From the NCBI RefSeq assembly GCF_001984105.1, contig NZ_MTQM01000003.1:1-64000 (forward strand): a stretch of 64,000 nt of DNA, given 5' to 3'. The translations under genes were made by a program, and so were the position numbers. The notes under the pieces were generated by a model. The model was given only the letters and a program-made list of their open reading frames with translations, was not told the DNA's origin and searched no databases. Positions 385 to 24,088 of this stretch are shown one piece after another (the first letter of the stretch is position 1; the number at the start of each line of letters is the position of its first letter). The stretch is from Microbacterium sp. CSI-V. Its GTDB lineage: Bacteria; Actinomycetota; Actinomycetes; Actinomycetales; Microbacteriaceae.

Positions 385-442
385 CCAACCCTGTTGACAG
401 TGTCTGGGGCTATCTCTATATTAGTACCTGTCAAGTCAACTA
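385..442 (+). promoter_or_regulatory. Repeated promoter-operator, copy 1
   Basis: TTGACA at 394-399, 17-bp spacer, TATATT at 417-422, operator-like GTCAAGTCAACTA at 430-442. The block opens with CCAACCCTG in place of the usual CCAACCGGG. It lies 22 bp upstream of the gene at 465, with the ribosome binding site GGAGG between. First of 13 same-orientation copies in the window. Confidence 0.85.
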
Positions 443-464
443 TTCAATAACCGTGGAGGTTCTC

Positions 465-1088
465 ATGAGCATGTGGACGTGTGTATCGGTGGATGCCGTG
501 GAGGGCGCCGAGCTGCCCTCGCTCGCCCGGCTAATCGCGCTGTGGAATGCGAACGCGGACACCGAGCACCAGATCGACATCGACACCGGCCGCGCGCGGA
601 TCTACGGGATCGACGCGCAGATCGGGATCGACCGGGCCGGATCGGCCTACGTGCAGTACTCAGACCAGGTGCAGACCTTCGGGCTGCGTGAACTCGCCGA
701 GCAGCTGACGGCATCCCTGCCGGGGCTGTCCCTCACCCTCAAGGAGGAATGGACGGGCGAGGAGCCGAGTGTCACCCGCGAGCGCTGGCAGGGCGGCCGC
801 GTGGTCGCGAAGCGGGATTCGAACGGGCCGCTGATCCCGGTGGACGCGCTGGGCCGCACGCCGGAGACCGCGCTGGCGGCGATCCTGGCGGCCGTGGGCT
901 CGCTCGGGGACGCGCTGATGATGACGTTCCCGGGTGAGGACTTCTGGGAGCACTTCACCTACCTGGAAGGCTCCCGGCTCGCCGAGGTGTTCGAGGCCGC
1001 CGCGCTGCCGGAGCGCGCTGCCATGATCCGCGAGCGCTGCCGCGAGGCCGATCCCGAGGCATGGGAGGAGGCCGACGAGACCGCCTGA
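465..1088 (+). CDS. Hypothetical protein, 207 aa
   Basis: I do not recognise the family. The ATG at 465 follows GTGGAGG at good spacing and sits directly behind promoter copy 1; the longer frame that starts near 222 would begin upstream of that promoter and is rejected. The product is acidic and looks soluble, with no signal peptide or membrane segment. A central part (about residues 95-115) contains GEEPSVTRERWQGGRVVAKR, and the C-terminus is a helical stretch rich in E, A and R. It is followed by a short spacer and promoter copy 2, so it is probably transcribed alone. Inference: an accessory or establishment gene of the conjugative element. Confidence 0.7.
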   Translation: MSMWTCVSVDAVEGAELPSLARLIALWNANADTEHQIDIDTGRARIYGIDAQIGIDRAGSAYVQYSDQVQTFGLRELAEQLTASLPGLSLTLKEEWTGEEPSVTRERWQGGRVVAKRDSNGPLIPVDALGRTPETALAAILAAVGSLGDALMMTFPGEDFWEHFTYLEGSRLAEVFEAAALPERAAMIRERCREADPEAWEEADETA

Positions 1089-1121
1089 GACCCGCGATTT
1101 CTCCCTAGAAAACGGGGGAGT

Positions 1122-1170
1122 CTCCCAATGTCGGAGGCTCCCCCTATATTCGTAAGCGTCAAGTCAACTA
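1122..1170 (+). promoter_or_regulatory. Repeated promoter-operator, copy 2 (no -35)
   Basis: TATATT at 1145-1150 and GTCAAGTCAACTA at 1158-1170 are intact, but the -35 position (1122-1127) reads CTCCCA. The bases right after it (AATGTC then GGAG) still match the other copies, so only the CCAACCGGGTTGAC part was lost or never present. Copy 5 has the same defect. Confidence 0.75.
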
Positions 1171-1193
1171 TTCGACGTTCTAGGGAGGACATC

Positions 1194-1670
1194 ATGACTG
1201 ACATCACCACTCAGGCGGTTACCGGCTTCGAGGGTCTCACCCTCCCCCGCCCGGCTGTCATCGGCGAGCTGGCGCGGGTCGAGGCTTCCACGCGCGCCGC
1301 GCTCGCCCGCGCCGAGCAGCTCGAGGCGGAGATCGCCACGGCGCGGGCCGAGGAGATCACGGACGGCGCAGACGCCCGTCTCGTGGACTTCTGGGAGGCG
1401 GCGGGCGAGATCGCCACCGACCACGACATGTGCGGCGAGTACGACCGCATGGTCGCCGCCGTGGACGGCATCACCCGCGAGCGCGAGTTCGAGGTCGGTA
1501 TGGACATCACGATCAGCCTGCGGGTCTACCGGACGGTCACCGCGACCAACTACGACGCCGCTATCGAGGCCGCCGAGGAGGACGTCGACCGCTACGACGT
1601 GGCCGAGGCGATCCGCGAGAACGGCTGGGATGACATCGACTGGAACGGGTCGAGCGCCGAGCCGGTCTGA
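1194..1670 (+). CDS. Hypothetical protein, 158 aa, paralog of the next gene
   Basis: The ATG at 1194 follows AGGGAGGACATC and promoter copy 2. The protein starts MTDITT, has a helical, coiled-coil-like segment (about 24-48) rich in A, R and E, and then a beta-rich part with REFEVGMDITISLRVYRTV. It shares start, layout and length class with the gene at 1819 (MTDITT, RAALAR, LEAE, then a REREF or RDRKYT segment). The two are therefore probably a tandem duplication that included the promoter. The acidic C-terminus ends near DDIDWNGSSAEPV. Function unknown. Confidence 0.75.
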   Translation: MTDITTQAVTGFEGLTLPRPAVIGELARVEASTRAALARAEQLEAEIATARAEEITDGADARLVDFWEAAGEIATDHDMCGEYDRMVAAVDGITREREFEVGMDITISLRVYRTVTATNYDAAIEAAEEDVDRYDVAEAIRENGWDDIDWNGSSAEPV

Positions 1671-1683
1671 TCCGGCATCGCGC

Positions 1684-1714
1684 GAGGGGCGGGGCTTCGG
1701 CCTCGCCCCTCTTT
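1684..1714 (+). terminator. Hairpin terminator with TTCG loop
   Basis: Stem GAGGGGCGGGGC (1684-1695) pairs with GCCTCGCCCCTC (1700-1711), with one G.T pair, around a TTCG tetraloop and followed by TTTC. It begins 13 bp after the stop at 1670 and separates this gene from promoter copy 3. Confidence 0.8.
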
Positions 1715-1737
1715 CGTGCCCTGCGGCGAGCGCCGAT

Positions 1738-1795
1738 CCAACCGGGTTGACAATGTCGGAGCCCTCCCCTATATTTGTACATGTCAAGTCAACTA
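1738..1795 (+). promoter_or_regulatory. Repeated promoter-operator, copy 3
   Basis: Opens with CCAACCGGG; TTGACA at 1747-1752, 17-bp spacer, TATATT at 1770-1775, GTCAAGTCAACTA at 1783-1795. The leader between operator and gene (TCGACGTTCTAGGGAGGAC) is nearly the same as behind copy 2. Confidence 0.88.
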
Positions 1796-1818
1796 ATCGA
1801 CGTTCTAGGGAGGACATC

Positions 1819-2265
1819 ATGACTGACATCACCACCACCGACAACCGGGTCGCCGGTCAGACCGAGCTCGCCCGGGCGCAGGAGTCCGAGCGGGCCGCGC
1901 TCGCCCGCGTGGTCACCCTTGAGGCCGAGCTGGCACGGCTGCAGAACGACCAGATCGAGGCGAGCGACCCGCGCCTGACGATGCTCTGGGCGAAGGTGCG
2001 CCGGATCGCCGACCACGCCGGTTACGAGACCTACTACGACACGCTCGCCGAGGAGCTGGGCGGCGTCCAGCGTGACCGGAAGTACACGGTCACCTACCGC
2101 GTGACGGTCGAGGTCGACGTGCCGGTCGAGGTCACCGCGATCAACACGGAGACCGCCGAGGAGGCCGCCCGGCCCATGCTCACCCCCGAGCGGATCGCCA
2201 CGATCCTGCACGGCCCCGGCTGGCGCGACATGACGGTCGAGGAGCACGACATCATCGAGGACTGA
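1819..2265 (+). CDS. Hypothetical protein, 148 aa, paralog of the previous gene
   Basis: The ATG at 1819 follows AGGGAGGACATC, the same leader as the gene at 1194, and the first six residues (MTDITT) are identical. An N-terminal helical region (about 14-40) is followed by a beta-rich segment with KYTVTYRVTVEVDVPVEVTA near residues 95-115, then an acidic tail. No catalytic motif or membrane segment is visible. Its similarity to the neighbour suggests duplication of a complete promoter-leader-gene cassette. Function unknown. Confidence 0.75.
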   Translation: MTDITTTDNRVAGQTELARAQESERAALARVVTLEAELARLQNDQIEASDPRLTMLWAKVRRIADHAGYETYYDTLAEELGGVQRDRKYTVTYRVTVEVDVPVEVTAINTETAEEAARPMLTPERIATILHGPGWRDMTVEEHDIIED

Positions 2266-2269
2266 TCGA

Positions 2270-2300
2270 CCGGGAGGGGCGGGCCGCCCGCCCCTCCCGG
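2270..2300 (+). terminator. Perfect 14-bp hairpin terminator
   Basis: CCGGGAGGGGCGGG (2270-2283) pairs perfectly with 2287-2300 around a CCG loop. It begins 5 bp after the stop at 2265. There is no T-run behind it. Confidence 0.75.
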
Positions 2301-2333
2301 CATCCGCCCCGCGGCGAGCGCAGCCGATCCGAT

Positions 2334-2391
2334 CCAACCGGGTTGACAATGTCCGACCCCTCCCCTATATTAGTAGGTGTCAAGTCAACTA
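2334..2391 (+). promoter_or_regulatory. Repeated promoter-operator, copy 4
   Basis: CCAACCGGG, TTGACA at 2343-2348, 17-bp spacer, TATATT at 2366-2371, GTCAAGTCAACTA at 2379-2391. The leader that follows (AAACCCGTTCTGAGGAGGAC) recurs behind copy 9. Confidence 0.88.
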
Positions 2392-2414
2392 AAACCCGTT
2401 CTGAGGAGGACGCC

Positions 2415-2588: not shown

Positions 2589-2645
2589 CCAGACCATGGC
2601 GAGACCGGGCGCCCGGCCTCGCCGGCCCCGACCGAGAGGAACACC

Positions 2646-3469: not shown

Positions 3470-3499
3470 CACCCGCGGCGCTCGCCGCAGTCCTCCCTA

Positions 3500-3534
3500 G
3501 CGGGGCGAGGGGCAACCCTCGCCCCGCATTTTCG
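3500..3534 (+). terminator. Rho-independent terminator
   Basis: GCGGGGCGAGGG (3500-3511) pairs perfectly with CCCTCGCCCCGC (3516-3527) around a GCAA tetraloop and is followed by ATTTTCG. It closes the 2415-3469 unit. Confidence 0.88.
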
Positions 3535-3541: not shown

Positions 3542-3590
3542 GCTCCAATGTCCGACCCCCTCCCTATATTGGTAAACGTCAAGTCAACTA
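3542..3590 (+). promoter_or_regulatory. Repeated promoter-operator, copy 5 (no -35)
   Basis: TATATT at 3565-3570 and GTCAAGTCAACTA at 3578-3590 are intact. The -35 position reads GCTCCA, followed directly by AATGTCCGACC as in complete copies. The terminator at 3500-3534 lies just upstream, so the CCAACCGGGTTGAC part may have been lost when it arose. Confidence 0.75.
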
Positions 3591-3613: not shown

Positions 3614-4171
3614 ATGACCGACACCACCACGACCGCAGCCGAGATCCTGGCAGGGTTCGAGCAGAGCTTCGGTGGCATCTTCGAGCGGATGAGCTGGGCC
3701 GAGGATGAGATCGCGCAGGCGCAGGCCCGGCACCCCGAGCAGGCCGACACGCTCTTTCACTCGTTCTCGCTGCTCAGCGGCGGCGAGGCATCCGCGCGGA
3801 TGAGCGTTGAGGCCGTCTACCGGGCGCACGCGCGGGAGATCCTCGAGCGGGTCGCCGCGGGCGAGGACACCCGCCCCGGCACCGCCGTCGAGGTCGTCAT
3901 CGGCCTTCTCGCGGCCGCGGAGCGGGCACCGCTCTCGCACGAGGGATTCGGGCTGTGCGCGCGGCTGTGGATCGCCGCAGGCCTGCCCGATCACGACGAG
4001 TTCGCCGACAAGCTCGACCACATCGAGGCGCTGCACGCCGCCCGGCTCGACGCCGAGGAGGCCGACGCCCGCCGTGCCTGCCGGGACGACGCCCGCAAGC
4101 TCGGCCGGATCGAGTGCGACGGCTGGCACCACGGCGCGCAGGTGCCCTGCAGCTACATCGCCGCGGCCTGA
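3614..4171 (+). CDS. Hypothetical helical protein, 185 aa
   Basis: The ATG at 3614 follows GAGGAGGACATC and promoter copy 5. It begins MTDTTTTAAEILAGFEQSF, resembling the MTDITT start of the genes at 1194 and 1819, although the body differs. The body is helical and acidic, with a conspicuous ALHAARLDAEEADARRACRD helix (about 145-165). The C-terminus has GWHHGAQVPC, which could bind metal through two histidines and a cysteine, but this is only suggestive. Function unknown. A hairpin follows its stop. Confidence 0.72.
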   Translation: MTDTTTTAAEILAGFEQSFGGIFERMSWAEDEIAQAQARHPEQADTLFHSFSLLSGGEASARMSVEAVYRAHAREILERVAAGEDTRPGTAVEVVIGLLAAAERAPLSHEGFGLCARLWIAAGLPDHDEFADKLDHIEALHAARLDAEEADARRACRDDARKLGRIECDGWHHGAQVPCSYIAAA

Positions 4172-4231: not shown

Positions 4232-4289
4232 CCAACCGGGTTGACAATGTCCGACCCTGCCCCTATATTAGTAAATGTCAAGTCAACTA
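4232..4289 (+). promoter_or_regulatory. Repeated promoter-operator, copy 6
   Basis: CCAACCGGG, TTGACA at 4241-4246, 17-bp spacer, TATATT at 4264-4269, GTCAAGTCAACTA at 4277-4289, then a leader with TTCTGAGGAGGAC before the gene at 4314. Confidence 0.88.
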
Positions 4290-4313: not shown

Positions 4314-5321
4314 ATGACCACCATCCTGAAGGCCGTCGAGAAGGGCGAGCTGCTCACCGCCGTCACCACGCTGCTCGGCTACACCCCGACCGAGTCGCTC
4401 GTCATCGCCCCGTTCCGCGGCACCCGCTCGCACGGCGCGCTGCGCGTCGACCTCCCCACCGCCACCGACGCGGACGCGCTCGCCGCGTACACCGCCGAAT
4501 GGCTCGGCACGGTCGTCCGCCTCGGCGGCGTCACGATGATCGCCGCGGCGATCTACACCGACGGCGACCAGGCGCGGCACGCGCTGCTCGCCGAGACCCT
4601 GCGCACCATGTGCGACCTGCTCGGCCTCGACGTCGCCGCGATCTTCTACGCCACCCCCGCCACCTGGGGCGAGTACTTCACCGGCGAGGAGCACACCGAG
4701 CCGGCCCCGGCCCTCGCCAACGCCCCTGCGCTCGCCGCGGGCGACCAGCACGCCGGGATCGAGCTTCCCGTCACCGATCCCGCGCTCGCCGCGGCCGTCG
4801 CCTCGGCGACGTTCCCCACGGATGACGAGGCGAGCCTGACCGCGATGCTGGAAGGCGTGCTCACCGCCGACCTCGACGCCCCGGAGCCGAGCACCCTCGC
4901 GCACCTCGCGGCCGTCATGGTGATCCCGGCGCTGCGGGACGCGGCCCTGATTCAGTGGGCCAGCGACGAGCAGACCGGACGCGAGGCCGTCGCCGCGCAG
5001 ACCGCCTACTCCACCGCGGGCACCGCGATCCCCGAGCACCTCGGCCGGATCATGGTCGGCGACACGATGCACCGCCCCGAGCCCGCCCGCCTCGGCGCCG
5101 CGCTCGCCGCGTGCCGGATCGCCGCGGCGCACGTCACCGGCCACGAGCACGCCGCGCTGCTCGCCGCGGCCGCGTGGCTGTCCTGGGCGCTGGGCCGCTC
5201 GACGCACGCGGGCCACTACCTCGACCACGCCGCGCAGGCTGACCCCGCTCTGACCATCGTGGACGTCCTGAGCCGCCTCCTGGCGACCGGAACCCTCCCG
5301 GCCTGGATCTTCATCCAGTGA
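4314..5321 (+). CDS. DUF4192 family protein, 335 aa
   Basis: The N-terminus shows the DUF4192 signature: a helix, then LLGYTPTESLVIAPF (about residues 21-35), then GALRVDLP. This domain is widespread in actinobacteria and their mobile elements and has no established biochemical role. The length is typical. The middle (about 125-180) is a variable linker rich in A, E and P. The C-terminal half is helical, with AHVTGHEHAALLAAAAWLSW near residue 265-285, as expected for the family. No membrane segment. The ATG at 4314 follows GAGGAGGACACC, and the gene is a single-gene cassette between promoter copy 6 and a strong hairpin. Confidence 0.85.
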   Translation: MTTILKAVEKGELLTAVTTLLGYTPTESLVIAPFRGTRSHGALRVDLPTATDADALAAYTAEWLGTVVRLGGVTMIAAAIYTDGDQARHALLAETLRTMCDLLGLDVAAIFYATPATWGEYFTGEEHTEPAPALANAPALAAGDQHAGIELPVTDPALAAAVASATFPTDDEASLTAMLEGVLTADLDAPEPSTLAHLAAVMVIPALRDAALIQWASDEQTGREAVAAQTAYSTAGTAIPEHLGRIMVGDTMHRPEPARLGAALAACRIAAAHVTGHEHAALLAAAAWLSWALGRSTHAGHYLDHAAQADPALTIVDVLSRLLATGTLPAWIFIQ

Positions 5322-5409: not shown

Positions 5410-5467
5410 CCAACCGGGTTGACAATGTCCGACCCCTGCCCTATATTGGTAAGTGTCAAGTCAACTA
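5410..5467 (+). promoter_or_regulatory. Repeated promoter-operator, copy 7
   Basis: CCAACCGGG, TTGACA at 5419-5424, 17-bp spacer, TATATT at 5442-5447, GTCAAGTCAACTA at 5455-5467. It serves the 39-codon gene at 5486. Confidence 0.88.
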
Positions 5468-6344: not shown

Positions 6345-6402
6345 CCAACCGGGTTGACAATGCCCGACCCTGCGCCTATATTGGTAAATGTCAAGTCAAC
6401 TA
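6345..6402 (+). promoter_or_regulatory. Repeated promoter-operator, copy 8
   Basis: CCAACCGGG, TTGACA at 6354-6359, 17-bp spacer, TATATT at 6377-6382, GTCAAGTCAACTA at 6390-6402. One base differs from other copies just after the -35 (AATGCC for AATGTC). Confidence 0.88.
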
Positions 6403-6427: not shown

Positions 6428-7663
6428 ATGGACACCGAAGAGCAGCAGCTCGAGCAGCAGCCCACCAGCTGGACACTCAGCCCCGCCGAGCTCGCCGCCA
6501 CCCAGGAGCGCGCCGCCAAGATCAACGCCCGCGCCACCAAGCGCGGCTTCACCGGCCGCCTCGAGGTCACCGGCACCCCGCGCGAAATCTCCGAGACCGA
6601 CGAGGCCGGCCTCACCCGCACCCGCCTCGTCTACGACGTCCAGATCACCGGCGAAGCCCCCAGCTACAACGGCTGGACCTTCCTCGCCGCCGTCGACACC
6701 GTCGAGACCGCCACCGGCACCGACTTCATCCTCCGCACCGCCCCCGGCGTCGACGAGTCCGGCGTCGACCGCACCGCGCTCGCCGCAGGCCGCTGCGAGC
6801 ACTGCAACACCGTCCGCGCGAACCGCCGCTACACCTACCTGGTGCGCCACACCGAGACCGGCGAGGTCCGCCAGGTCGGCTCCACCTGCATCAAGGACTT
6901 CACCGGCTGGGCCGGCCGCCCCGTCTTCATCTGGGCCGACGACGTCGCCGACGAGCTGCACGAGTTCCTCGGCGGATTCGCCTCGAGCGGGCACGAGTAC
7001 ACGCCCGAGACCGTCGTCGCCGCCGCATGGGCGATCAGCCGGCGCTTCGGCTGGGTCCCCGCCTCCGCAACCTTCGGCCGCTCGACCCGCGACCTCGTCA
7101 GCAGCTACCTGTACGGCACGAGCCGCGCCGATCGCGAGCTGCGCGCCGACGTCGCCGCCGACGTCGCCGAGGCCGCCGGCATGGGCGCCACCATCGTCGC
7201 CGCTCTCCTCGAGGGCCTCACCGGCGCCGGGGACTACGTCGCCAACCTGAAGGTGTGCCTGCGCGCGGCATCCGTCTCCCACCGCCACCTGGGCATCACC
7301 GTCTCGGCCGTCGCCGCCTACGAGCGCATGATCGGCGACCGCGTCCAGCGCCAGGCCGCCGAGAAGAACCGCAAGGAATCCGCCTACGCCGGCGAGATCG
7401 GCCAGAAGCTCACCATCACCGGCACCGTGACCCGCCTCAAGCCGATCGAGCAGAACTACGGCTACACCCCGACCACCTCGATGCTCGTCATCATCGAGTC
7501 CGGCACCACCGTCGCCAAGACCTTCACCGCAGCCTCCTGGGCCTGGGACGTCGCGCAGGGCGACGAGGTCACCATCACCGGCACCGTCAAGGCACACGAG
7601 GAGTACAACGACACCAAAGAGACCGTCCTCACCCGCCCCAAGCGCATCGACCCCACCGCATAA
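6428..7663 (+). CDS. Phage/plasmid-type protein with CxxC motif, 411 aa
   Basis: The ATG at 6428 follows GCAGGAGGCCGAC and promoter copy 8. A CEHC motif at residues 123-126 is followed by strands (RRYTYLVRHTETGEVRQVG) and another cysteine in STCIKDFTG near residue 153. This resembles a small zinc-stabilised domain common in actinobacterial phage and plasmid proteins; that comparison is from memory. The C-terminal 90 residues (KLTITGTVTRLKPIEQNYG, then VTITGTVKAHEEYNDTKET) look like an OB-fold, so nucleic-acid binding is possible. No catalytic motif is seen. The gene forms a single cassette with the terminator at 7682. Confidence 0.75.
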   Translation: MDTEEQQLEQQPTSWTLSPAELAATQERAAKINARATKRGFTGRLEVTGTPREISETDEAGLTRTRLVYDVQITGEAPSYNGWTFLAAVDTVETATGTDFILRTAPGVDESGVDRTALAAGRCEHCNTVRANRRYTYLVRHTETGEVRQVGSTCIKDFTGWAGRPVFIWADDVADELHEFLGGFASSGHEYTPETVVAAAWAISRRFGWVPASATFGRSTRDLVSSYLYGTSRADRELRADVAADVAEAAGMGATIVAALLEGLTGAGDYVANLKVCLRAASVSHRHLGITVSAVAAYERMIGDRVQRQAAEKNRKESAYAGEIGQKLTITGTVTRLKPIEQNYGYTPTTSMLVIIESGTTVAKTFTAASWAWDVAQGDEVTITGTVKAHEEYNDTKETVLTRPKRIDPTA

Positions 7664-7745: not shown

Positions 7746-7803
7746 CCAACCGGGTTGACAATGTCTGAGCCCTCCCCTATATTGGTACATGTCAAGTCAA
7801 CTA
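7746..7803 (+). promoter_or_regulatory. Repeated promoter-operator, copy 9
   Basis: CCAACCGGG, TTGACA at 7755-7760, 17-bp spacer, TATATT at 7778-7783, GTCAAGTCAACTA at 7791-7803. Its leader is the same as behind copy 4. Confidence 0.88.
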
Positions 7804-7826: not shown

Positions 7827-8753
7827 ATGACCACCGCCACGATCACCCCCAAGGTCGCCGAGATCACCGACGCGAAGGAGCGCCACGCCCGCGCGGCCTG
7901 GTCGATCATCACCGAGCCGGGCGACGGCCACGCCGGTGCCCTGGTCCAGCAGCTCGGACACGTCGCCGCGCTGGCCGCGCTCGAGGGCAAGCGCGCGGAT
8001 CTCGACAAGATCGTCCCCGGCCTGGCCGCGCAGGCGCAGCGCTGGATGCCGCGTCTGCGCACCGACGCGATCGCCACGGCGCTGCGCAAGGCCGAGGACA
8101 ACGGGATCCGCCTGGTCGACCCGGCCACCGTCCCCGGCCTCGCCGACCTCGGCCCGCACACCCCGCACGTGCTCTGGGTCCGCGGAGACATCGACGCCCT
8201 CGGCGCCGAGCGTCGGCTCGCGATCGCGGGCGCACGTGCTGCCACCAGCTACGGCGAGAGCGTCTGCGCGGACATCACCGGCGACGTCGTCGCGGCCGGG
8301 GTCACCGTGCACAGCGGCGGCGCTTACGGGATCGACGGCGCAGCTCACCGCGCAGCGCTGATGAGCGACGGCGCGACCGTCGCCTGGCTCGCCGGTGGCG
8401 TCGATCGGATGTACCCGATCGGGCACGCGCAGCTCGCAGACCGGATCGCCAGCTCCGCCGGATCCGCCCTCGTCTCCGAGGTGGCTCCCGGGTCGTCGCC
8501 GACCCGCTGGCGCTTCCTTTCTCGGAACCGTCTGCTCGCGGCCGCGACGCAGGCGACCGTGATCGTCGAAGCAGGCTTTCGCTCCGGATCCCTGAACACC
8601 GCCGGGCACGCCGCGAGCCTCGGCCGTCCGCTCGGAGCGGTGCCCGGCAACGTCACCAGCGCCGCGAGCGCCGGATGCCACCGGCTCCTGCGGGAGTACG
8701 ACGCCCGGGTGATCACGACCGGCGCGGAGGCGCTCGAGCTGATCACCACGTGA
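7827..8753 (+). CDS. DprA/Smf-like DNA-processing protein
   Basis: A DprA family protein of 308 aa, about the length of a core DprA without the C-terminal winged helix. Rossmann-fold signatures are clear: AIAGARAATSYGE, HSGGAYGIDGAAHRAAL, WLAGGVDRMYPIGH, SEVAPGSSPTRWRFLSRNR, IVEAGFRSGSLNTAGHA and GAVPGNVTSAASAGCHRLL. DprA binds single-stranded DNA and loads RecA in transformation. On a conjugative element it plausibly handles the entering strand, which is an inference. The first 100 residues are helical. The ATG at 7827 follows GAGGAGGACGCC behind promoter copy 9, and the gene ends at hairpins. Confidence 0.9.
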   Translation: MTTATITPKVAEITDAKERHARAAWSIITEPGDGHAGALVQQLGHVAALAALEGKRADLDKIVPGLAAQAQRWMPRLRTDAIATALRKAEDNGIRLVDPATVPGLADLGPHTPHVLWVRGDIDALGAERRLAIAGARAATSYGESVCADITGDVVAAGVTVHSGGAYGIDGAAHRAALMSDGATVAWLAGGVDRMYPIGHAQLADRIASSAGSALVSEVAPGSSPTRWRFLSRNRLLAAATQATVIVEAGFRSGSLNTAGHAASLGRPLGAVPGNVTSAASAGCHRLLREYDARVITTGAEALELITT

Positions 8754-10401: not shown

Positions 10402-13209
10402 GTGGATGTGGCCAAGACCCTGTCGATGAATGAGATCCGCTCGCGCGCCGCGCGCTTCGCGCGCGACTGGAAGGACGAGCCGGGCGACGAACGGCAGCAG
10501 GCCCAATCCTTCGTTCGAGACCTGCTCGGCGTCTACGGGATCACCGAGACCCGAGCCGCGTTCTACGAGAAGCGGGTCAAGCGCTCATCGACAGGATCGC
10601 GCGGCTATATCGACGCACTGATCCCGGGTCTCGCTCTGATCGAGATGAAGTCGGCCGGCAAGGATCTCGCCGCAGCCGAGCAGCAGGCGCTCGACTACAT
10701 CGACGATCTCCCCGATCCCGAAGTGCCCCGATGGGTGATCACGAGCGACTTCCGCCGATTCCGGCTGCTGGACCTCCGATCCGAGACCGGAACGGTGCCG
10801 CTCGAGTTCGAGCTCAGCGAGCTGCGGGAGCAGGCAGACAAGCTCGCGTTCCTCGCTGGCTACGGAGAGCGCACCTTCGGCTCGAAAGCTCAGGAATCGG
10901 CGTCGATCAAGGCCGCGAAGCTGATGGCATCGCTGTACGAGGCGCTTGAGGGATCCGGGTACGACGATCACGAGGCCAGCGTGTTCCTCGTGCGCACGCT
11001 GTTCGCGCTCTACGCCGACGACGCCGGCCTCTGGGACCGAGATCTGTTCCTCGAGTTCCTCGAGACCCGCACCGCCGAGGACGGCTCAGACCTCGGCCCG
11101 CAGCTGTCGCTGCTGTACCAGGTGATGGGGCGCGAGCCGGGCCGCCGGCAGTCGAACCTCGACGAGCTGATCGCCCGCTTCCCCTACGTCAACGGCGGCG
11201 TCTTCGAAGAGCCCCTCTCCATCCCGTCGTTCGATGCCGGCATGCGCAAGCGCCTCACCGACGCAGCCATGTTCAACTGGTCAGCAATCTCGCCGGCGAT
11301 CTTCGGCAGCCTCTTCCAGGCCGTCAAGGACAAGACCGCACGGCGTGAGCTCGGCGAGCACTACACGACCGAGACCAACATCATGAAGGTCATCGGGCCC
11401 ATGTTCCTCGACGAGCTCCGCCAGCGATTCACCGACGGCTATCACGACACCGCCAAGCTCAAGAAGCTGCGCGCGGATATGAGCCGGATGCGGTTCCTCG
11501 ACCCGGCGTGCGGGTGTGGGAACTTCCTGGTGGTCGGCTACCGCCAGATGCGCGCGCTGGATCTCGAGGTGCTGCTGCGGATCCAGGAGCTGTCTGGCGA
11601 GACCGCTCGGACGATGTTCTTCACCGAGGAGCACCTCGCCGTGAAGCTGTCCAGCTTCCACGGCATCGAGCTCGAGGAATGGCCGGCGCAGATCGCGGCG
11701 ACCGCGCTGCACCTGGTGGAGCATCAGGCGAACCAGGCGATGGAGCTGGCGCTCGGCGCCGCGCCCGACTCGCTGCCGCTCGACAAGATCAAGAGCATCG
11801 TCGTCGGGAATGCCCTTCGGATCGACTGGGCCGACGTCGTCGAGCCGAGCGCGGATCTCTACGTCATGGGCAACCCGCCGTTCATCGGGCACAAGACCAA
11901 GGCCACGGCGCAGCGCGATGACCTCCGCGTGGTCTGGGGCGCGCAGTTCGACGGCTACCTGGATTACGTGACCGGGTGGTTCAAGAAGGCTGCCGACTTC
12001 CTCGGCGACCGCGGCGGGCACTTCGCCTTCGTGTCGACCAACTCGATCGTGCAGGGGCAGCCGGTCCCCGCGCTGTTCCGGCCGCTCATCGACGCCGGCT
12101 GGCGCGTCGCCTTCGCGCACCGCACGTTCGCCTGGACGTCGGAGGCCCCGAGCGCCGCGGCGGTGCATTGCGTGGTGACTGGCTTCGATCGGATCACCAA
12201 GGGTCGGCCGGCGGTCCTGTTCGACTACGACGAGCCGCGGGGCGAGCCTCACCGGGTGCCGGTCACCGAGCAGATCAACGGCTACCTGCATGACGCACCG
12301 AACGTCTACGTCGACACCCGGGAGAAGCCGCTCGCCGATCTGCCGGTGGCATCCTTCGGCACCATGCCGGCGGACGGAGGGAACCTGCTGATCGACGAAG
12401 ACGCGCACGCGATCGCGATCGCCGATCCCATCGCCGCGAAGTACGTCAGGCCGTTCCTCGGCGCGAAAGAGCTCGTGCAGGGCAAGTCGCGGTGGTGCCT
12501 CTGGCTTGAGGATCTCGATCCGTCGGATCTGCGCCACTCGGCGTTCCTTCGCGAGCGGGTCGAAGGCTGCCGAGAGTGGAGGTCCGCCCAGACTCCCACC
12601 GGCGACGCCTACAAGCTGCGCCTCACCCCGCACCTGTTCCGCCCCAACTCGAAGCGGCCGACGAGCAACTACGTGTGCGTGCCCCGGCACGTCTCCGAGG
12701 CGCGCACCTTCTTCCCTGTGGCCTACCTCGAGCCCGAGTCGATCAGCGGCGACGCGAACTTCACGATCGCGGATCCCGAGGGCCTGGCGTTCGCGGTGCT
12801 GTCGTCCTCGGCGTTCCTTGCCTGGCAGAAGGCCGTGGGCGGGCGCATCAAGTCCGACCTGCGGTTCTCGAGCACTCTCACATGGAACACCTTCCCGCTG
12901 CCCACGCTGAGCGATGAGCAGCGAGCTGCGGTCATCGCAGGCGGACAGGCCGTGCTGGATGCGCGCGCGTTGCACCCCGAACGCTCTCTCGCCGATCACT
13001 ACAACCCGCTGGCCATGGCGCCGGATCTCCTGCGCGCCCACCGTCAGCTCGACGCGGCGATCGACAAGGCGCTGGGGCTGCGCGGCACGGCGACCGAGGA
13101 TTCAAGGCTGCGCGCGCTGTTCACGAACTATCAGCAGCTCATCACCGCCGGCGAGCTGGCTATGCCCGCAAAGCCCGCACGCCAACGGCGGGCGAGAGCC
13201 GCATCATGA
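10402..13209 (+). CDS. Type IIL restriction-modification enzyme, MmeI-like, 935 aa
   Basis: One polypeptide with nuclease, methyltransferase and specificity parts, as in the MmeI family (about 920 aa). The nuclease motif is D71, nine residues, E81-x-K83 (in YIDALIPGLALIEMKS), matching the known MmeI pattern. A helical spacer follows. The adenine-methyltransferase SAM motif FLDPACGCGNFL begins at residue 365 and the catalytic NPPF at 491. The C-terminal third should hold the target-recognition domain. Such enzymes methylate one strand of an asymmetric site and cut about 20 bp away, so no separate methylase is needed. GTG at 10402 is used; no clear ribosome binding site is seen, and ATG at 10426 is an alternative. 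It overlaps the next gene by four bases. Confidence 0.9.
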   Translation: MDVAKTLSMNEIRSRAARFARDWKDEPGDERQQAQSFVRDLLGVYGITETRAAFYEKRVKRSSTGSRGYIDALIPGLALIEMKSAGKDLAAAEQQALDYIDDLPDPEVPRWVITSDFRRFRLLDLRSETGTVPLEFELSELREQADKLAFLAGYGERTFGSKAQESASIKAAKLMASLYEALEGSGYDDHEASVFLVRTLFALYADDAGLWDRDLFLEFLETRTAEDGSDLGPQLSLLYQVMGREPGRRQSNLDELIARFPYVNGGVFEEPLSIPSFDAGMRKRLTDAAMFNWSAISPAIFGSLFQAVKDKTARRELGEHYTTETNIMKVIGPMFLDELRQRFTDGYHDTAKLKKLRADMSRMRFLDPACGCGNFLVVGYRQMRALDLEVLLRIQELSGETARTMFFTEEHLAVKLSSFHGIELEEWPAQIAATALHLVEHQANQAMELALGAAPDSLPLDKIKSIVVGNALRIDWADVVEPSADLYVMGNPPFIGHKTKATAQRDDLRVVWGAQFDGYLDYVTGWFKKAADFLGDRGGHFAFVSTNSIVQGQPVPALFRPLIDAGWRVAFAHRTFAWTSEAPSAAAVHCVVTGFDRITKGRPAVLFDYDEPRGEPHRVPVTEQINGYLHDAPNVYVDTREKPLADLPVASFGTMPADGGNLLIDEDAHAIAIADPIAAKYVRPFLGAKELVQGKSRWCLWLEDLDPSDLRHSAFLRERVEGCREWRSAQTPTGDAYKLRLTPHLFRPNSKRPTSNYVCVPRHVSEARTFFPVAYLEPESISGDANFTIADPEGLAFAVLSSSAFLAWQKAVGGRIKSDLRFSSTLTWNTFPLPTLSDEQRAAVIAGGQAVLDARALHPERSLADHYNPLAMAPDLLRAHRQLDAAIDKALGLRGTATEDSRLRALFTNYQQLITAGELAMPAKPARQRRARAAS

Positions 13210-14963: not shown

Positions 14964-15021
14964 CCAACCGAGTTGACAACCTCTGAACTTGACTCTATAT
15001 TAGTACATGTCAAGTCAACTA
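14964..15021 (+). promoter_or_regulatory. Repeated promoter-operator, copy 10
   Basis: CCAACCGAG, TTGACA at 14973-14978, 17-bp spacer (diverged sequence), TATATT at 14996-15001, GTCAAGTCAACTA at 15009-15021. The spacer differs strongly from the left cluster while -35, -10 and operator are kept, which points to selection on those parts. Confidence 0.88.
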
Positions 15022-15044: not shown

Positions 15045-15392
15045 ATGGCTCGCGGATTCGTCGCCCCCATCATCCGGACCGAGTTCCACGCGCCCGGCTC
15101 GCAGGGCCTGAGCGCCACGGCGATGCAGGTCCTCGTCGAGCACCCCCACGGCCCGGTCGTCTCGTTCGAGCTCCCGGTCGTGCGTCACGACCGGTTCGAG
15201 TACCTCGGCGACGTCACCCACAAGTTCGTTCCCGTCGACCAGGTCCCCGCGGACCGTGTCGGCTACATGTACGGCGGCGCGCTCATCCAGGTGCGCAGCG
15301 AGCTCGCGACGGCACTCGGCCTCCCGGCGGCGTACTACCCGCTGCACGACCGCAGCGAGTCGCGACTCGAGTACGCGGCCAACTCCGACTGA
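15045..15392 (+). CDS. Hypothetical protein, 115 aa
   Basis: The ATG at 15045 follows CAGAGGAGATCATC and promoter copy 10. The protein is beta-rich: VAPIIRTEFHAPGSQGLSA, VLVEHPHGPVVSFELPVVRH, VTHKFVPVDQVPADRVGYMY. A helix and LPAAYYPLHDRSESR follow. No cysteine and no membrane segment. No family recognised. Probably a single-gene cassette, because a new promoter copy follows about 65 bp after its stop. Confidence 0.7.
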   Translation: MARGFVAPIIRTEFHAPGSQGLSATAMQVLVEHPHGPVVSFELPVVRHDRFEYLGDVTHKFVPVDQVPADRVGYMYGGALIQVRSELATALGLPAAYYPLHDRSESRLEYAANSD

Positions 15393-15457: not shown

Positions 15458-15506
15458 TTGCATCCCGCTCCCGCATGCCCTATATTCGTACCTGTCAAGT
15501 CAACTA
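15458..15506 (+). promoter_or_regulatory. Repeated promoter-operator, copy 11
   Basis: TTGCAT at 15458-15463 (weaker -35), 17-bp spacer, TATATT at 15481-15486, GTCAAGTCAACTA at 15494-15506. The CCAACCGGG block is absent. It is followed by an unusually long leader of about 115 bp before the GTG at 15623. Confidence 0.82.
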
Positions 15507-16370: not shown

Positions 16371-16372
16371 TC

Positions 16373-16852
16373 ATGGCCGCCAAGAACCCCGACAGCGACG
16401 TCACGGTCGAGAAGGTCGTCTACATTGGCCGCCGGCTCACCGGCGACAACAGGATCGGCTACTGGTATCTGCCCCTCGTCGACGGCGAGCTCACCGACAA
16501 GGCGGCCGGCTCCTACAAGCCGTACCGTTCAGGCCTGCCGGTCGGCGGCGTCGTGGAGATCAGCCGACCGAGCGATGCGCCCGATCGGCTCTACACCTCC
16601 GGTCCTCGCGGGCCGCGGCTCGTCGCGGCCTGGGAGGACGCCGACCTGGTCGCCGAGTGGCGGATGCAGGATCTCGCCGACGCTCAGGTCCTCGCGCTCA
16701 GCAAGCGCGCCAAGAAGGACCTCGACGGCCTCCCGGACGAGTTCAAGGACGCGGTTGACACCCTCGCCCGGCACTTTGCCCGGCTCAACCACTCGCAGCG
16801 CGCAGCGCTCCTCCCGCTCGTCGAGAGCCAGATCCTCGGCAGGCCACGATGA
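16373..16852 (+). CDS. Hypothetical protein, 159 aa
   Basis: ATG at 16373, just after the nuclease stop (16370), with GGGAGGCGAGTGATC as ribosome binding site. The first half is beta-rich (VTVEKVVYIGRRLTG, IGYWYLPLVDGEL, GLPVGGVVEISRPSD). The second half is helical (VLALSKRAKKDLDGLPDEF, TLARHFARLNHSQRAALL). It overlaps the next gene by four bases (ATGA), so it sits in the unit driven by promoter copy 11. No family recognised. Confidence 0.72.
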   Translation: MAAKNPDSDVTVEKVVYIGRRLTGDNRIGYWYLPLVDGELTDKAAGSYKPYRSGLPVGGVVEISRPSDAPDRLYTSGPRGPRLVAAWEDADLVAEWRMQDLADAQVLALSKRAKKDLDGLPDEFKDAVDTLARHFARLNHSQRAALLPLVESQILGRPR

Positions 16853-18209: not shown

Positions 18210-18240
18210 GCAGTGGAGCCACCTGATAAATTGAAGACCT

Positions 18241-18326
18241 GGCGCCCGGCCGTTGAGCGGAAACTCCTTCATGGATCTCCTCTCGAGTTAGTTGACTTGA
18301 CACTTGATTAGCTCCGGCCGGGCGCC
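18241..18326 (-). promoter_or_regulatory. Reversed operator flanked by a 12-bp inverted repeat
   Basis: On the - strand GTCAAGTCAACTA (18289-18301) is followed by GAGAGGAG and an ATG at 18272, as behind the promoter copies, but TATATT and TTGACA are missing. The block is bracketed by GGCGCCCGGCCG (18241-18252) and its exact complement (18315-18326), 62 bp apart. The ATG opens a frame that runs antisense to the gene at 17865 and has no support as a gene. Options are a relic of a cassette, a large-loop terminator, or an invertible segment. Confidence 0.5.
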
Positions 18327-18458
18327 TTTCTCTTTGCCCACCCGCACCCTCCGCGGCACGCCCGGGACGCCCTCCCCGATCTGGTGAATGTTTCGAAGGT
18401 CGGGCCATGCGCGCATACTTGGTTATCGGTTCTATGTTCTGAGTGTGCGGGAGGCGAC

Positions 18459-20302: not shown

Positions 20303-20360
20303 CCAACCCTGTTGACTATCTCGTATTTGTTGCCTATATTGGTACACGTCAAGTCAACTA
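20303..20360 (+). promoter_or_regulatory. Repeated promoter-operator, copy 12
   Basis: CCAACCCTG, TTGACT at 20312-20317, 17-bp diverged spacer, TATATT at 20335-20340, GTCAAGTCAACTA at 20348-20360. It drives the four-gene unit 20382-22130. Confidence 0.86.
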
Positions 20361-20381: not shown

Positions 20382-20915
20382 ATGGCTATCCTCCTGGCAC
20401 CCAAGGACACCATCGACCTCATCGTCACCGCCGCGGTGCTCGGCACCCGCAGAGACGACGACGCAGACCACACCCGACAGCTCGTGCAGCGCGCGGACCA
20501 GATCGGCCAGCAACTGTGGGATGCGAACTACGCCTCGGCGAGCTACGCCCGCGGGATGGAGCTGCCGGCGCCGGCGTACAGCTGGGAGCCGGTCTTCGAC
20601 CTCATCTGGCAGGCCTCGACCGACCAGCCCGACTACTCGCTCACCCCGCAGCAGACGCTGCAGGTGGAGCGCTGCCGGCTGTTCCTCAGCGAGAACTCCC
20701 GCGAGCACCCCGACTGGGATGACTCCGCGGCACGGCTGTTCCTCGAGCAGCTCGGCTCGGCCGTCGAGTCCCGGCTGCGCGGGTGGCCGACCGGCCCGGG
20801 CGAGGATCCCGGCGTGCTCGAGTTCCGTGGGCTCAGCAACGCGCTGCCGCGGTGGACCCGCAGCTCCGGGTTCCCGCAGCTGCGCTCGTCGACGACGCAG
20901 GAGCAGGCATCGTGA
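20382..20915 (+). CDS. Hypothetical protein, 177 aa
   Basis: The ATG at 20382 follows TTGAGAGGGGTTCCGCC behind promoter copy 12. The product is predicted mostly helical: LLAPKDTIDLIVTAAVLGTR, DHTRQLVQRADQIGQQLWDA, and an aromatic-rich middle. The C-terminal part contains SAARLFLEQLGSAVESRLRGW and then a small, probably globular end. No known motif. It overlaps the next gene by four bases (GTGA), the start of a tightly packed operon. Confidence 0.72.
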   Translation: MAILLAPKDTIDLIVTAAVLGTRRDDDADHTRQLVQRADQIGQQLWDANYASASYARGMELPAPAYSWEPVFDLIWQASTDQPDYSLTPQQTLQVERCRLFLSENSREHPDWDDSAARLFLEQLGSAVESRLRGWPTGPGEDPGVLEFRGLSNALPRWTRSSGFPQLRSSTTQEQAS

Positions 20916-21849: not shown

Positions 21850-21851
21850 TC

Positions 21852-22130
21852 ATGCACGTCACCATCCGATGGGAGACCCGACAGGAGCACACAGCTTCCG
21901 TCGACGTCGACGAGCTCGCGATCGCGACGTGGGCGCTTCGCTCGCTGCCGATCGGGACGCTGTCCCCTGACGACGAGTCTCGCCCGCCGACGCTCGAGGA
22001 GCTGCAGTCGGCGATGGCGCGGAACGGGCATCTGCGGATCCGGCTCACGCAGCTGTACGTGATCGCCCATGGCGGTGGCGAGCCCGACCCCGCAACCCGC
22101 CGCGACGGAACGCCCACCGAACAGAGTTGA
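21852..22130 (+). CDS. Small hypothetical protein, 92 aa
   Basis: ATG at 21852, two bases after the previous stop. It starts with a strand MHVTIRWETRQEHTASVDV and then has helices. LEELQSAMARNGHLRIRL and a polar tail follow. No motif recognised. Last gene of the 20382-22130 operon, closed by a strong hairpin that overlaps the stop codon. Confidence 0.65.
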   Translation: MHVTIRWETRQEHTASVDVDELAIATWALRSLPIGTLSPDDESRPPTLEELQSAMARNGHLRIRLTQLYVIAHGGGEPDPATRRDGTPTEQS

Positions 22131-22165
22131 CCCCCGAGAGGATGCAGCACCTCTCGGGGGTCTTG
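22129..22165 (+). terminator. Perfect 13-bp hairpin terminator
   Basis: GACCCCCGAGAGG (22129-22141), 8-nt loop, CCTCTCGGGGGTC (22150-22162), then TTGG. The stem begins within the TGA stop at 22128-22130. Confidence 0.83.
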
Positions 22166-22269
22166 GTAATGAATGGGCTCTCAAAGTGTCTCATATGTCT
22201 TATCCGTCCTCAAGCCCCCGCAGGCAATCCGGAACGTGTTGATGGCTGCCGGCTCTCCGAATCGAGCTA

Positions 22270-22305
22270 CAGCATTTGTTACCTTTTTCCGGTACAATTG
22301 TCGAC
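22270..22305 (+). promoter_or_regulatory. Probable promoter and operator of the AbiE operon
   Basis: TACAAT (22293-22298) is a plausible -10 just before the ATG at 22306. The imperfect inverted pair TTGTTACC and GGTACAA brackets a short T-rich centre. AbiEi antitoxins are known to repress their own operon by binding inverted repeats, so this is the likely site. The repeated promoter module is absent. Confidence 0.45.
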
Positions 22306-22965
22306 ATGGCTGGAAAGACGATCGCGGAGCTCGGTGAGCTCGCTGCTGAGCGGTGGGGCATGTTCACCACCGCTCAGGCGGCGCGCGTCGGCGTCTCACG
22401 CAAGACCCTCTCGGGTCTGACCTCCTCGGGGGCGATCCATCGCGTCGCGCAGGGCGTCTACCGGATGGCTGGCGCGCCGGAACCCGAGCACGAGTTCATC
22501 TATGCGCCATGGCTCGCCCTCGGCGGCGCGACGCTGCCCCCCACCGAGACCGGCGTGCCGGCGGTTGTGGTGGCCGGCGAGAGCGCGGCGATCGCGCACG
22601 GCATCGGCGACTGGTTCCCCGGTGTCGTCGACGTGATGACGCCGGCGCGGCGCACCACTCGACTTCCGGACGTCCGGCTGCGCACCCGTCGCCTCTCCCC
22701 CGACGAGGTCGTGTTCCTCAACGGGCTGCCCACGCTCACCGTCGAGCGCACGATCGCTGATCTCCTCGAGCAGTGGGCAGATCAGTCTCTCGTCGTCGAC
22801 GCTCTGCGCCAGGCCGCCGAGCAGGGCAAGCTGCTCTCGCCTCGGCGGCTCGCGGAGTTCCTCGAGCCGATCGCGGCCGCGCACAGCGCCGAGTCCGGCG
22901 CCGAGTTCGCCGCGCAGCTAATGGAGGAAGCCGGCCTGGCGTCCGGGGTGGCGTCTCGTGGCTGA
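22306..22965 (+). CDS. abiEi: AbiEi-like type IV antitoxin
   Basis: 219 aa. The N-terminal winged-helix region reads WGMFTTAQAARVGVSRKTLSGLTSSGAI and HRVAQGVYRM, the usual AbiEi beginning, and a C-terminal antitoxin domain follows (GLPTLTVERTIADLLEQW is characteristic). AbiEi opposes AbiEii without direct binding and represses the operon. ATG at 22306; it overlaps the toxin gene by 8 bp. In a conjugative element the pair can stabilise inheritance and may limit phage growth by abortive infection. Confidence 0.87.
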   Translation: MAGKTIAELGELAAERWGMFTTAQAARVGVSRKTLSGLTSSGAIHRVAQGVYRMAGAPEPEHEFIYAPWLALGGATLPPTETGVPAVVVAGESAAIAHGIGDWFPGVVDVMTPARRTTRLPDVRLRTRRLSPDEVVFLNGLPTLTVERTIADLLEQWADQSLVVDALRQAAEQGKLLSPRRLAEFLEPIAAAHSAESGAEFAAQLMEEAGLASGVASRG

Positions 22966-24019
22966 CGAGGGCGGCTACCGCAGCTGGCAGGGCATCGCTC
23001 AGGCGATCAAGTCGGAGGCCGGCCGTGCGGCGAAGGCGGGCGAGAGCAGCCTCAACGTGAACGAGCAGATCGTGCAGGCGAACCACGACAGGTTCCTCTC
23101 CCGCGTCTTCGCCGACGGCGCCGACTCCGAATGGCTGCTCAAGGGCGGGACCGCGATGCTCGCGCGCGTGCCGAAGGCCCGGGCCACGAAGGACCTGGAC
23201 CTGGCAGCGACCAATGCCGCCGATCTCGACGCCGCCCAGGAGGCGCTGCAGCGCGCGGCTTCCCGAGATCTCGGCGACCACATCCGGTTCCAGCTGACCG
23301 GCGCCCGGGAGACGGGGCTCGGACAGAACCAGCCCGGAGTCGAGACCCGCCGGCTGGTGTTCACCGCACAGGACGCCGGCACCGGCCGCAAGCTGTTCGA
23401 CGTGCCGATCGACGTCGTCGTGGGGCCTCCCCCGATCGGGACCGTGGAGACCGCGGATCCGTCGAACCGGCTGCAGCTGGGGCGCCCGATCCAGACGCAC
23501 CCCTACCGCCTGTTCCCGATCGCCGATCAGATCGCGGAGAAGGTGACCGCGACGATGGACACCTACGCTGGCCGCCCCAGCAGCCGGGTGAAGGACCTCG
23601 TCGACCTGGTCACGATCGCCAACACCCAGACCGTCAACCTGCGGGAGCTGCAGATGGCGATCGACGCCAAGCGCGCTCTCTCCCGCACCTCGGCGTTCGA
23701 CGAGTTCGCCGTGCCCGCCGACTGGGAGCGCAGCTATCGCCCGCTCGCGATGAAGACTCCGGCCGCGCGCGACGTCGACGCGCAGCAGGCCGTCGCGCTG
23801 GCCAAGCAGCTCGTCGACCCGGCGCTCGTCGACGAGCCCGTGGCCGCCGACATCACCTGGGTGCCCGGCCGCGGCTGGACCGATGACCCCGACGCCATCG
23901 CCGGGGGCCGGCCTGACCCCGCGCCGCCGGGTGGCGACGTGCACGTGACCAGCCACGTCCGAGGCGGCCATCCGGTCACCGAGCACTGGCGTGGGGCGCG
24001 CGGCTCCGGGCGCAGCTGA
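22958..24019 (+). CDS. abiEii: AbiEii-like nucleotidyltransferase toxin
   Basis: 353 aa. The nucleotidyltransferase core is visible: WLLKGGTAMLARVPKARATKDLDLAA (about residues 60-85) contains the GG loop and the Asp-x-Asp metal pair, and FDVPIDVVVG (about 147-157) gives the third acidic residue. LFPIADQIAEKVTATMDTY and SRVKDLVDLV follow, as in AbiEii/AbiGii toxins, which transfer nucleotides and block growth. The C-terminal 50 residues (GRPDPAPPGGD and following) are low-complexity. GTG start within the antitoxin gene, so the two are coupled. Confidence 0.87.
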   Translation: MADEGGYRSWQGIAQAIKSEAGRAAKAGESSLNVNEQIVQANHDRFLSRVFADGADSEWLLKGGTAMLARVPKARATKDLDLAATNAADLDAAQEALQRAASRDLGDHIRFQLTGARETGLGQNQPGVETRRLVFTAQDAGTGRKLFDVPIDVVVGPPPIGTVETADPSNRLQLGRPIQTHPYRLFPIADQIAEKVTATMDTYAGRPSSRVKDLVDLVTIANTQTVNLRELQMAIDAKRALSRTSAFDEFAVPADWERSYRPLAMKTPAARDVDAQQAVALAKQLVDPALVDEPVAADITWVPGRGWTDDPDAIAGGRPDPAPPGGDVHVTSHVRGGHPVTEHWRGARGSGRS

Positions 24020-24030
24020 CCGCACATCCT

Positions 24031-24088
24031 CCAACCGGGTTGACAGTCGAATCAACTATCCCTATATTGGTTCATGTCAAGTCAACTA
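24031..24088 (+). promoter_or_regulatory. Repeated promoter-operator, copy 13
   Basis: CCAACCGGG, TTGACA at 24040-24045, 17-bp diverged spacer with an extra TCAACTA at 24052-24058, TATATT at 24063-24068, GTCAAGTCAACTA at 24076-24088. Last copy found and the only one with a second operator-like word between -35 and -10. Confidence 0.87.

Follow-up and report, generated by a model that had tools for sequence, protein, structure and literature searches.

A tagged promoter array near the end of a probable linear Microbacterium plasmid, and a predicted antisense RNA that co-varies with the tag

Introduction

Contig C8 (100,708 bp) of a Microbacterium genome of 3.71 Mb carries at its left end the same 13-bp element (GTCAAGTCAACTA, here called the tag) in thirteen copies, all facing one way and each placed just downstream of a −10 promoter sequence, to form what we refer to as a module. 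This arrangement raises the question of what turns so many promoters on, and what their common tag is for. We have addressed it in the stretch analysed – bases 1-64000 of C8, termed the window – and by comparison with related plasmids. A prior inspection of the letters alone (the sequence-only reading) had proposed that one regulator, or one RNA-level signal, acts on all the modules.

How plasmid entry genes are expressed briefly and then silenced outside the enterobacteria is largely an open question. In plasmids of the pLS20 family, several establishment operons lie under one repeated upstream sequence, of which EGeRS2 is repressor-based and EGeRS1 is 400-600 bp long with a mechanism given as unknown; the strand that is transferred does not serve as the template (PMC8708921, in excerpt). 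A second relevant system is PafBC, an activator responding to single-stranded DNA that sits between the promoter and sigma domain 4 and contacts a −26 motif (PMC11804915, in excerpt); the consensus reported for LexA/RecA-independent promoters is tTGTCRgtg, 8 nt, then TAnnnT (PMC5656591, in excerpt).

Here, we describe the architecture of the array, its −26 element, an RNA fold with compensatory changes, and the co-variation of the tag with a complementary anti-tag in that RNA. From these we propose, with a probability of roughly 0.7, that the modules form a telomere-proximal entry regulon that would be switched on by a host sensor of single-stranded DNA and switched off in trans by a single antisense RNA specific to the tag.

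Results

Tagged modules in C8

An exact-pattern scan of the window gives 14 copies of GTCAAGTCAACTA, 13 on the plus strand and one on the minus strand (18289-18301), with no exact copy in the rest of the 3.71-Mb genome and 0 matches in the genome to the reversed pattern used as a control. Placement is non-random, as had been supposed: 16 sites have three or fewer mismatches against 4.03 expected, a number reached by none of 100 shuffles. In 13 of 13 plus-strand copies TATATT is followed by exactly 7 bases and then the tag, so the fixed distance claimed by the sequence-only reading stands. TTGACA lies 17 bp from the −10 in nine of the thirteen modules (1, 3, 4, 6-10 and 13; Table 1) rather than in the ten counted before; the two further −35 variants are present as described, TTGACT in module 12 and TTGCAT in module 11, and two modules (2 and 5) have no −35. 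The shared leader GAGGAGGAC, which had been thought to precede the ATG throughout, is exact in four modules (4, 5, 6 and 9), with GGGAGGAC in two more. Overlooked earlier were the minus-strand copy, which proves to lie in a predicted RNA gene, and a fourteenth module outside the window (TAATAT-N7-GTCAAGTCACCTA, C8 96976-97001, at position 96989, with one tag mismatch); it precedes a gene at 97021 near the opposite plasmid end, and its sequence also occurs on contig C3 of G064, a metagenome-assembled genome (MAG).

The spacer had been reported to vary in distal copies, and divergence is indeed confined to these; but in seven of the nine proximal modules ATGTC[C/G/T]GA is kept and is itself an element, and the first module has the shorter core TGTCTG. 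This bears on the reading that the repeats are recent duplications, conserved by shared descent and not by function, which we find scarcely credible: the adjacent genes 1194 and 1819 are alike, leaders included, as duplication would predict, but the tag persists unchanged beside diverged spacers and flanks, and tags differ as a set between plasmids, each with a matching RNA.

Very improbable, too, are Frpo-type single-stranded-DNA promoters, which would be active on the entering strand ahead of second-strand synthesis. The TTGAC of the −35 can pair with the GTCAA of the tag in a single strand, several folds show this pairing, and the logic of plasmid leading regions (PMC11541004, in excerpt) would suit it; but only one of 13 module strands beats all 200 shuffles, 14-169 shuffles being as good for the other 12 (plus strand), and a top strand entering 5′ end first is the non-template strand. 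On the shuffle result, single-stranded folding of the modules was rejected.

The spacer element and PafBC

Alignment of modules from two plasmid types shows ATGTC[C/G]GA at a constant distance from the −10, also in modules that have lost the −35, and the spacer agrees with the published LexA/RecA-independent consensus in its core, TGTCnG, and in the 8-nt spacing to TAnnnT. By this sequence agreement the conserved spacer is the PafBC −26 element, like that before recA in the same genome. Of 24 genomes, 22 have the same −26/−10 architecture ahead of recA, including 15 of 15 Microbacterium (one further locus is without it and in one genome the recA start was not located), and none of the 24 has it at one base more spacing. 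With a matrix made from the 15 Microbacterium recA sites, themselves chosen with the spaced pattern that defines it, C8 modules take ranks 1, 2, 4, 5, 7, 10 and 13 of 201,372 positions (module 2 is first; module 1 ranks only 37), and those of Microbacterium sp. No. 7 plasmid B take ranks 1, 2, 5, 6, 7 and 11 of 187,572. The 9-mer alone ranks C8 modules lower (3, 4, 10, then 67 and below).

Nine plasmid regions supplied 78 modules for a wider count, which excludes tag matches without TAnnnT at 6-8 nt and leaves out G040, SZAS-4, SZAS-7, PS02067, BWSM_6 and HKST-UBA31. The start of TGTCnG lies 16 nt before the −10 in 45 of the 78, compared with two at offset 15 and one at offset 34, at a background density of about 0.001 per position. 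The −35 is present in 28 of the 33 modules without TGTCnG at offset 16, and TTG[AC] is absent at −35 in 35 of the 45 that have the −26 element; by class, 35 modules have the −26 element only, 28 the −35 only, ten both and five neither. The two elements thus tend to mutual exclusion (Fisher odds ratio 0.05, p=4.6e-8, modules assumed independent); the 78 are not in fact independent, because some come from related plasmids (pYJNG and G212 have loci in common) and some are repeats within a single array. In C8 itself the core is found in eight of 14 modules, six of which also have a −35.

The host genome encodes PafB and PafC in adjacent genes, whose WYL proteins match the structures 6sj9, 7p5x and 9fnd. 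Since most proximal modules carry the PafBC −26 element, this host activator, responsive to single-stranded DNA and DNA damage, probably drives most of them, and the promoter half of the original one-regulator idea is revised accordingly toward PafBC. The proteins encoded at 16849 and 24460, put forward earlier as tag binders, draw no support from profile matches: the former resembles PHROG families whose function is unknown and, weakly, zinc-finger/HNH profiles, and the latter has one marginal PHROG match and none in Pfam or NCBIfam.

Near the fourteenth module there is also a tag-less −26/−10 promoter on the minus strand (C8 ~96895-96917), upstream of a small regulator-like gene (96420-96860).

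A predicted small RNA gene

The single minus-strand tag copy falls in a predicted small-RNA gene at 18227-18336. The plus strand around the copy folds at -53.2 kcal/mol against a shuffle mean of -36.0, with 0 of 200 shuffles as good, and the predicted C8 RNA has a predicted −10 of its own, a terminator-like stem and a three-way-junction fold that sets the anti-tag at a hairpin loop. The same element is found in plasmid B, PS02067, SZAS-7 and BWSM_6, and the loop CUUGACAC is identical in C8 and plasmid B on diverged stems. Within the stretches searched there is one anti-tag copy per plasmid, in a hairpin; the folded body of the predicted RNA is 76-108 nt, plus a tail, and its gene is separated from the array end by 12 kb in plasmid B, 18 kb in C8 and 63 kb in pYJNG.

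A search of 366 Microbacterium genomes with a covariance model of the RNA finds it in 17, and in 12 of these it has diverged; the window contains 0 matches above gathering score in Rfam 15. In ten RNAs, 20 of 32 base pairs have changed on both sides, a count that none of 500 shuffles reaches and that compares with 3-9 in slid controls. TAnnnT stands 6-8 nt ahead of the outer stem in all ten, some of which are closely related. As to strand, the tail is T-richer on the RNA strand than on the opposite one in nine of ten with one tie (the ends being predicted), and the RNA strand folds more stably in eight of ten, often by little.

Co-variation of tag and anti-tag

A diverged RNA is accompanied by an array with the matching diverged tag in eight of eight plasmids examined, with 12-14 of 13-14 positions paired, a count that excludes the RNA-bearing contigs G278, G315, G355 and G367. 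Arrays of G075, G251, G089, G187, G212 and G040 were searched in 40-kb stretches and that of pYJNG in 60001-148596, where its tag TGTCACATTCACTA is found in 22 modules; the same tag is found in 4, 5 and 3 modules of the G251, G187 and G212 arrays. Other tags are TGTCAGATTCACTA in G075 (13 modules), TGTCAGATTCACAC in G089 (five), TGTCAGATCGAWTA in G175 (three) and GTCAGGTYACA in G040 (three). The per-plasmid tag patterns were set after the RNA loop had been read, and that of G040 was widened after a first failure. Tag and anti-tag pair at 14 of 14 positions in seven RNAs, at 13 of 14 in two and at 12 of 13 in G040, with one internal G-U pair in four tag groups and one true mismatch each in G089 and G175. 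When the six tag groups are permuted, the true assignment is the best of 720 for tag score and for duplex energy.

Complementarity is not confined to the tag: the RNA segment before the anti-tag complements ribosome regions, with at most two of 100 shuffles as good in seven of nine RNAs. From such comparisons, control of the tag at the RNA level, through one plasmid-encoded complementary RNA that co-varies with it over six groups, appears well supported, and it is this half of the earlier either-or suggestion that has held. A quite unlikely variant is that the RNA acts positively, by stabilizing the mRNA, or on transcription elongation, and not by blocking translation; pairing at the 5′ end could protect an mRNA or alter the fold of its leader, but the extension of the complementarity to ribosome sites tells against it.

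Co-variation taken alone is also compatible with control at the DNA level. On that account the tag would be the operator of a plasmid repressor, as in the clade II pLS20-family plasmid p576, the copy in the RNA gene would be another operator, and the two would co-vary since both track the specificity of the repressor. Its favourable points are the location of the tag at the predicted transcript start, a second tag-like copy inside the 24063 promoter, and the precedent of repressor-controlled establishment genes (PMC8708921, in excerpt). Taken together with the bases just upstream, the tag of the pYJNG group forms a palindrome (GTGAATGT-C-ACATTCAC), and palindromic arms (TGAAT and ATTCA) are present in G075, a symmetry that would suit a DNA-binding dimer. 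We nevertheless consider a repressor, the chief rival reading, unlikely: the tags of C8, plasmid B, G089 and G175 have no such palindrome by eye; the copy in the RNA gene is without the module −10, is located at a hairpin loop, and differs from the tag mostly by changes that preserve G-U pairing; the same RNA pairs with ribosome sites too; and no shared regulator was identified, none having been systematically sought.

Plasmid setting and gene content

C8 is probably a linear plasmid, its linear form being predicted from its ends. Bases 14-113 align with bases 14-112 of plasmid B, the SZAS-7 contig ends 1 nt from plasmid B, and C8 and plasmid B both have short inverted ends with palindromes, in C8 after a fold-back of ~55 bases is discounted; plasmid B and pYJNG were deposited as circular. 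The fold-back is seen at C8 100653-100708, where the terminal ~55 bases repeat, in reverse complement, a stretch ~400 bases inward, and is probably an assembly artefact at the telomere. The array begins ~400-850 bp from the terminus and is directed away from it in C8, SZAS-4, plasmid B, SZAS-7 and PS02067, and the first pYJNG tag is 361 bp from the record end.

Three of the 11 scanned first genes of C8 modules pass the Pfam cut-off (DUF4192, DprA-like and DUF3846), and the DprA-like product also matches PADLOC ShosA. UmuD-like and AbiE genes lie between C8 modules, and an ArdC-like gene lies downstream of a module in pYJNG. C8 also has an FtsK-like gene and encodes a 1653-aa protein (89352-94313) with C-terminal similarity to the telomere protein Tap (115 bits, below the 600-bit cutoff). 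Part of C8 is colinear with a plasmid B stretch that contains a gene annotated as a conjugal transfer protein; no relaxase was found among the scanned C8 proteins, and a MobF relaxase is annotated on pYJNG.

Table 1. Coordinates of the modules and associated features in the window
Feature	Position	Strand	Elements	Downstream gene
Module 1	394..442	+	−35 TTGACA, short −26 core TGTCTG, −10 TATATT (417), tag 430-442	465-1088
Module 2	1128..1170	+	−26 element 1128-1136 (ATGTCGGAG), without −35, −10 1145, tag 1158-1170	1194-1670
Module 3	1747..1795	+	−35, −26 element, −10 1770, tag 1783-1795	1819-2265
Module 4	2343..2391	+	−35, −26, −10 2366, tag 2379-2391	2415-2588
Module 5	3548..3590	+	−26 element, without −35, −10 3565, tag 3578-3590	3614-4171
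Module 6	4241..4289	+	−35, −26, −10 4264, tag 4277-4289	DUF4192 gene 4314-5321
Module 7	5419..5467	+	−35, −26, −10 5442, tag 5455-5467	
Module 8	6354..6402	+	−35, degenerate −26 (ATGCC), −10 6377, tag 6390-6402	6428-7663
Module 9	7755..7803	+	−35, −26, −10 7778, tag 7791-7803	DprA-like gene 7827-8753
Module 10	14973..15021	+	−35 only, −10 14996, tag 15009-15021	15045-15392
Module 11	15458..15506	+	TTGCAT −35-like, −10 15481, tag 15494-15506; ribosome site not seen close by	next called gene 15593
Module 12	20312..20360	+	TTGACT −35 only, −10 20335, tag 20348-20360	20382-20915
Module 13	24040..24088	+	−35 only, −10 24063, tag 24076-24088; second tag-like sequence in spacer, 2 mismatches (24046-24058)	DUF3846 gene 24107-24463
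−10 TAAATT of predicted small-RNA gene	18227..18232	+	8 nt ahead of outer stem	
Predicted antisense RNA	18241..18336	+	outer stem 18241-18252/18315-18326, three-way junction, then pyrimidine-rich tail	
Anti-tag TAGTTGACTTGAC in predicted RNA	18289..18301	+	hairpin loop CTTGACAC at 18296-18303	
Telomere-like terminus	1..113	.	conserved, palindromes; modules directed away from it	

Three other features of C8 were recorded. The 1653-aa protein has an N-terminal DnaG-like zinc ribbon; a gene at 10408-13209 of the window is similar to MmeI-like type IIL restriction-modification proteins of other Microbacterium plasmids; and genes at 33980-41898 of the window resemble a kdp potassium-uptake operon.

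Distribution

The C8-tag pattern occurs in 3 of 198 Microbacterium genomes and in 1 of 398 genomes of the family, this being the source genome itself, so at this sensitivity the tagged array looks restricted to the genus. An order-wide search with the RNA model R2 under stricter filters (396 genomes) returned only its own full match and two 40-nt matches, which were discarded as terminator-like. A scan of genome contigs gave 17 stretches, with multiple copies in SZAS-7, SZAS-4, PS02067 and BWSM_6 (Microbacteriaceae, Microbacterium or labelled Actinomycetota), two copies on one Microthrixaceae MAG contig that is possibly misbinned, and seven lone matches in taxa unrelated to these. Among viral contigs the exact pattern was matched 32 times, always singly and never as an array, and these matches were treated as chance; there was also one 18-mer viral match. 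DNA near-identical to bases 1-25000 is absent from phage records and is found in five plasmid records, which cover only parts of it. In searches of published work on PafBC and plasmids, leading regions, establishment genes, antisense leaders, and linear or conjugative plasmids, the system is undescribed among the matches listed (titles and abstract openings).

Discussion

A putative entry regulon

The modules are most readily understood as promoters of an entry, or establishment, regulon on an apparently linear plasmid family. Transcription, taken to be sigma-A dependent, would proceed from the proximal modules mostly by way of the PafBC −26 element and from the distal ones by way of an ordinary −35. 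PafBC being activated by single-stranded DNA, its −26 elements lead us to infer that the genes would be expressed upon entry of single-stranded plasmid DNA into a recipient or upon DNA damage, which would give them a role in conjugation. Every transcript would start with the same tag of ~13 nt, to judge from the predicted start, and one structured plasmid RNA would pair with the tag and the ribosome-binding region and so silence every tagged mRNA in trans. This RNA would keep the regulon off in an established host, and a newcomer plasmid would lack the RNA until the distant RNA gene had entered and been transcribed.

Several findings weigh against this interpretation. The ten-RNA alignment behind the count of compensatory changes was fitted to the structure, and both transcript start sites and RNA ends are predictions. 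The opposite strand folds more stably for the G075 and G040 RNAs, and the margin between strands is <2 kcal/mol in five further RNAs. G040 was misassigned in the first energy matrix, computed with a single leader, and was placed correctly with three leaders and the widened pattern. Ribosome-site complementarity is weak in G089 (6/100 shuffles as good) and not significant in G251 (30/100). In the assembly of MAG G064, a single contig carries nine tagged modules but an anti-tag gene was not found; the match of this contig to C8 stops at 11.5 kb, and the plasmid is divided among contigs, one of the others having an additional tag copy of the same plasmid type. PLSDB types plasmid B and pYJNG as non-mobilizable, and the palindromes of the pYJNG group and G075 belong on the same side.

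A tentative extension, to which we give somewhat less than even odds, is an invasion switch: entry of single-stranded DNA would act through PafBC on the tagged regulon, the delayed RNA would shut it off, and a resident plasmid would then silence incomers bearing the same tag, so that tags would define immunity groups; the reverse-strand start-associated sequence (SAS) of Cluster K phages may be related.

If the proposal is right, the sequence alone yields a complete and testable circuit, in which a host sensor of single-stranded DNA turns on, and a co-evolving RNA turns off, up to 22 promoters per plasmid. It predicts RNA-defined immunity groups among plasmids, it would link the DNA-damage pathway to plasmid spread, and the tag offers a route to entry genes, many of which are of unknown function.

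Comparison with known systems

The modules resemble PafBC promoters (RecA-NDp, or recA P1) in the TGTCnG core and its 8-nt spacing to TAnnnT, and the host has PafBC; they differ in being arrayed on a plasmid and coupled to a common 5′ tag, and some modules have a −35 as well or instead. With EGeRS1 and EGeRS2 of the pLS20 family they share the principle of a single upstream sequence repeated before several establishment operons (PMC8708921, in excerpt), whereas the C8 type has a short promoter, a PafBC element and a predicted trans-acting RNA. Frpo/ssi leading-region promoters would likewise tie expression to incoming single-stranded DNA (PMC11541004, in excerpt), but the modules have no such fold, and sensing would here be the task of a host protein at double-stranded promoters.

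The SAS of Cluster K mycobacteriophages is, like the tag, a 13-bp directional repeat at many gene starts (PMC3203893, in excerpt), with its function given as unknown (PMC3203893 and PMC7302621, in excerpt); it differs from the module tag in sequence (GGGATAGGAGCCC) and in position, lying at the ribosome site. In Cluster K1 a single reverse-strand SAS stands in a local hairpin loop (Adephagia 58639-58739), in a stretch with similarity in 128 phage records. Five phages (Adephagia, Validus, Niklas, LastHope and SgtBeansprout) carry the anti-SAS sequence, which is degenerate in Ekdilam and Amohnition; the loop of the SirPhilip hairpin is unrelated, and the Pixie stretch yielded no reverse SAS site. 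Folded alone (66 nt), the anti-SAS is in a hairpin loop in five of five phages; in 140 nt it is not for Validus or SgtBeansprout. Co-variation in Cluster K is not supported, because Amohnition and SirPhilip retain the usual SAS despite changed loops, which do not follow it.

Cluster A phages carry stoperators (GGTGGMTGTCAAG) that are bound by the phage repressor. Their resemblance to the C8 tag is limited to TGTCAAG, and other plasmids carry other tags. A further parallel is with the C4 RNA of phages P1 and P7 and the CI RNA of phage P4, structured small RNAs that pair with the leader or ribosome region of early mRNAs. These share with the proposed RNA the principle of immunity through antisense RNA, with target and RNA co-varying between relatives, and differ in acting on one operon, whereas here a common tag is set on at least 13 separate promoters.

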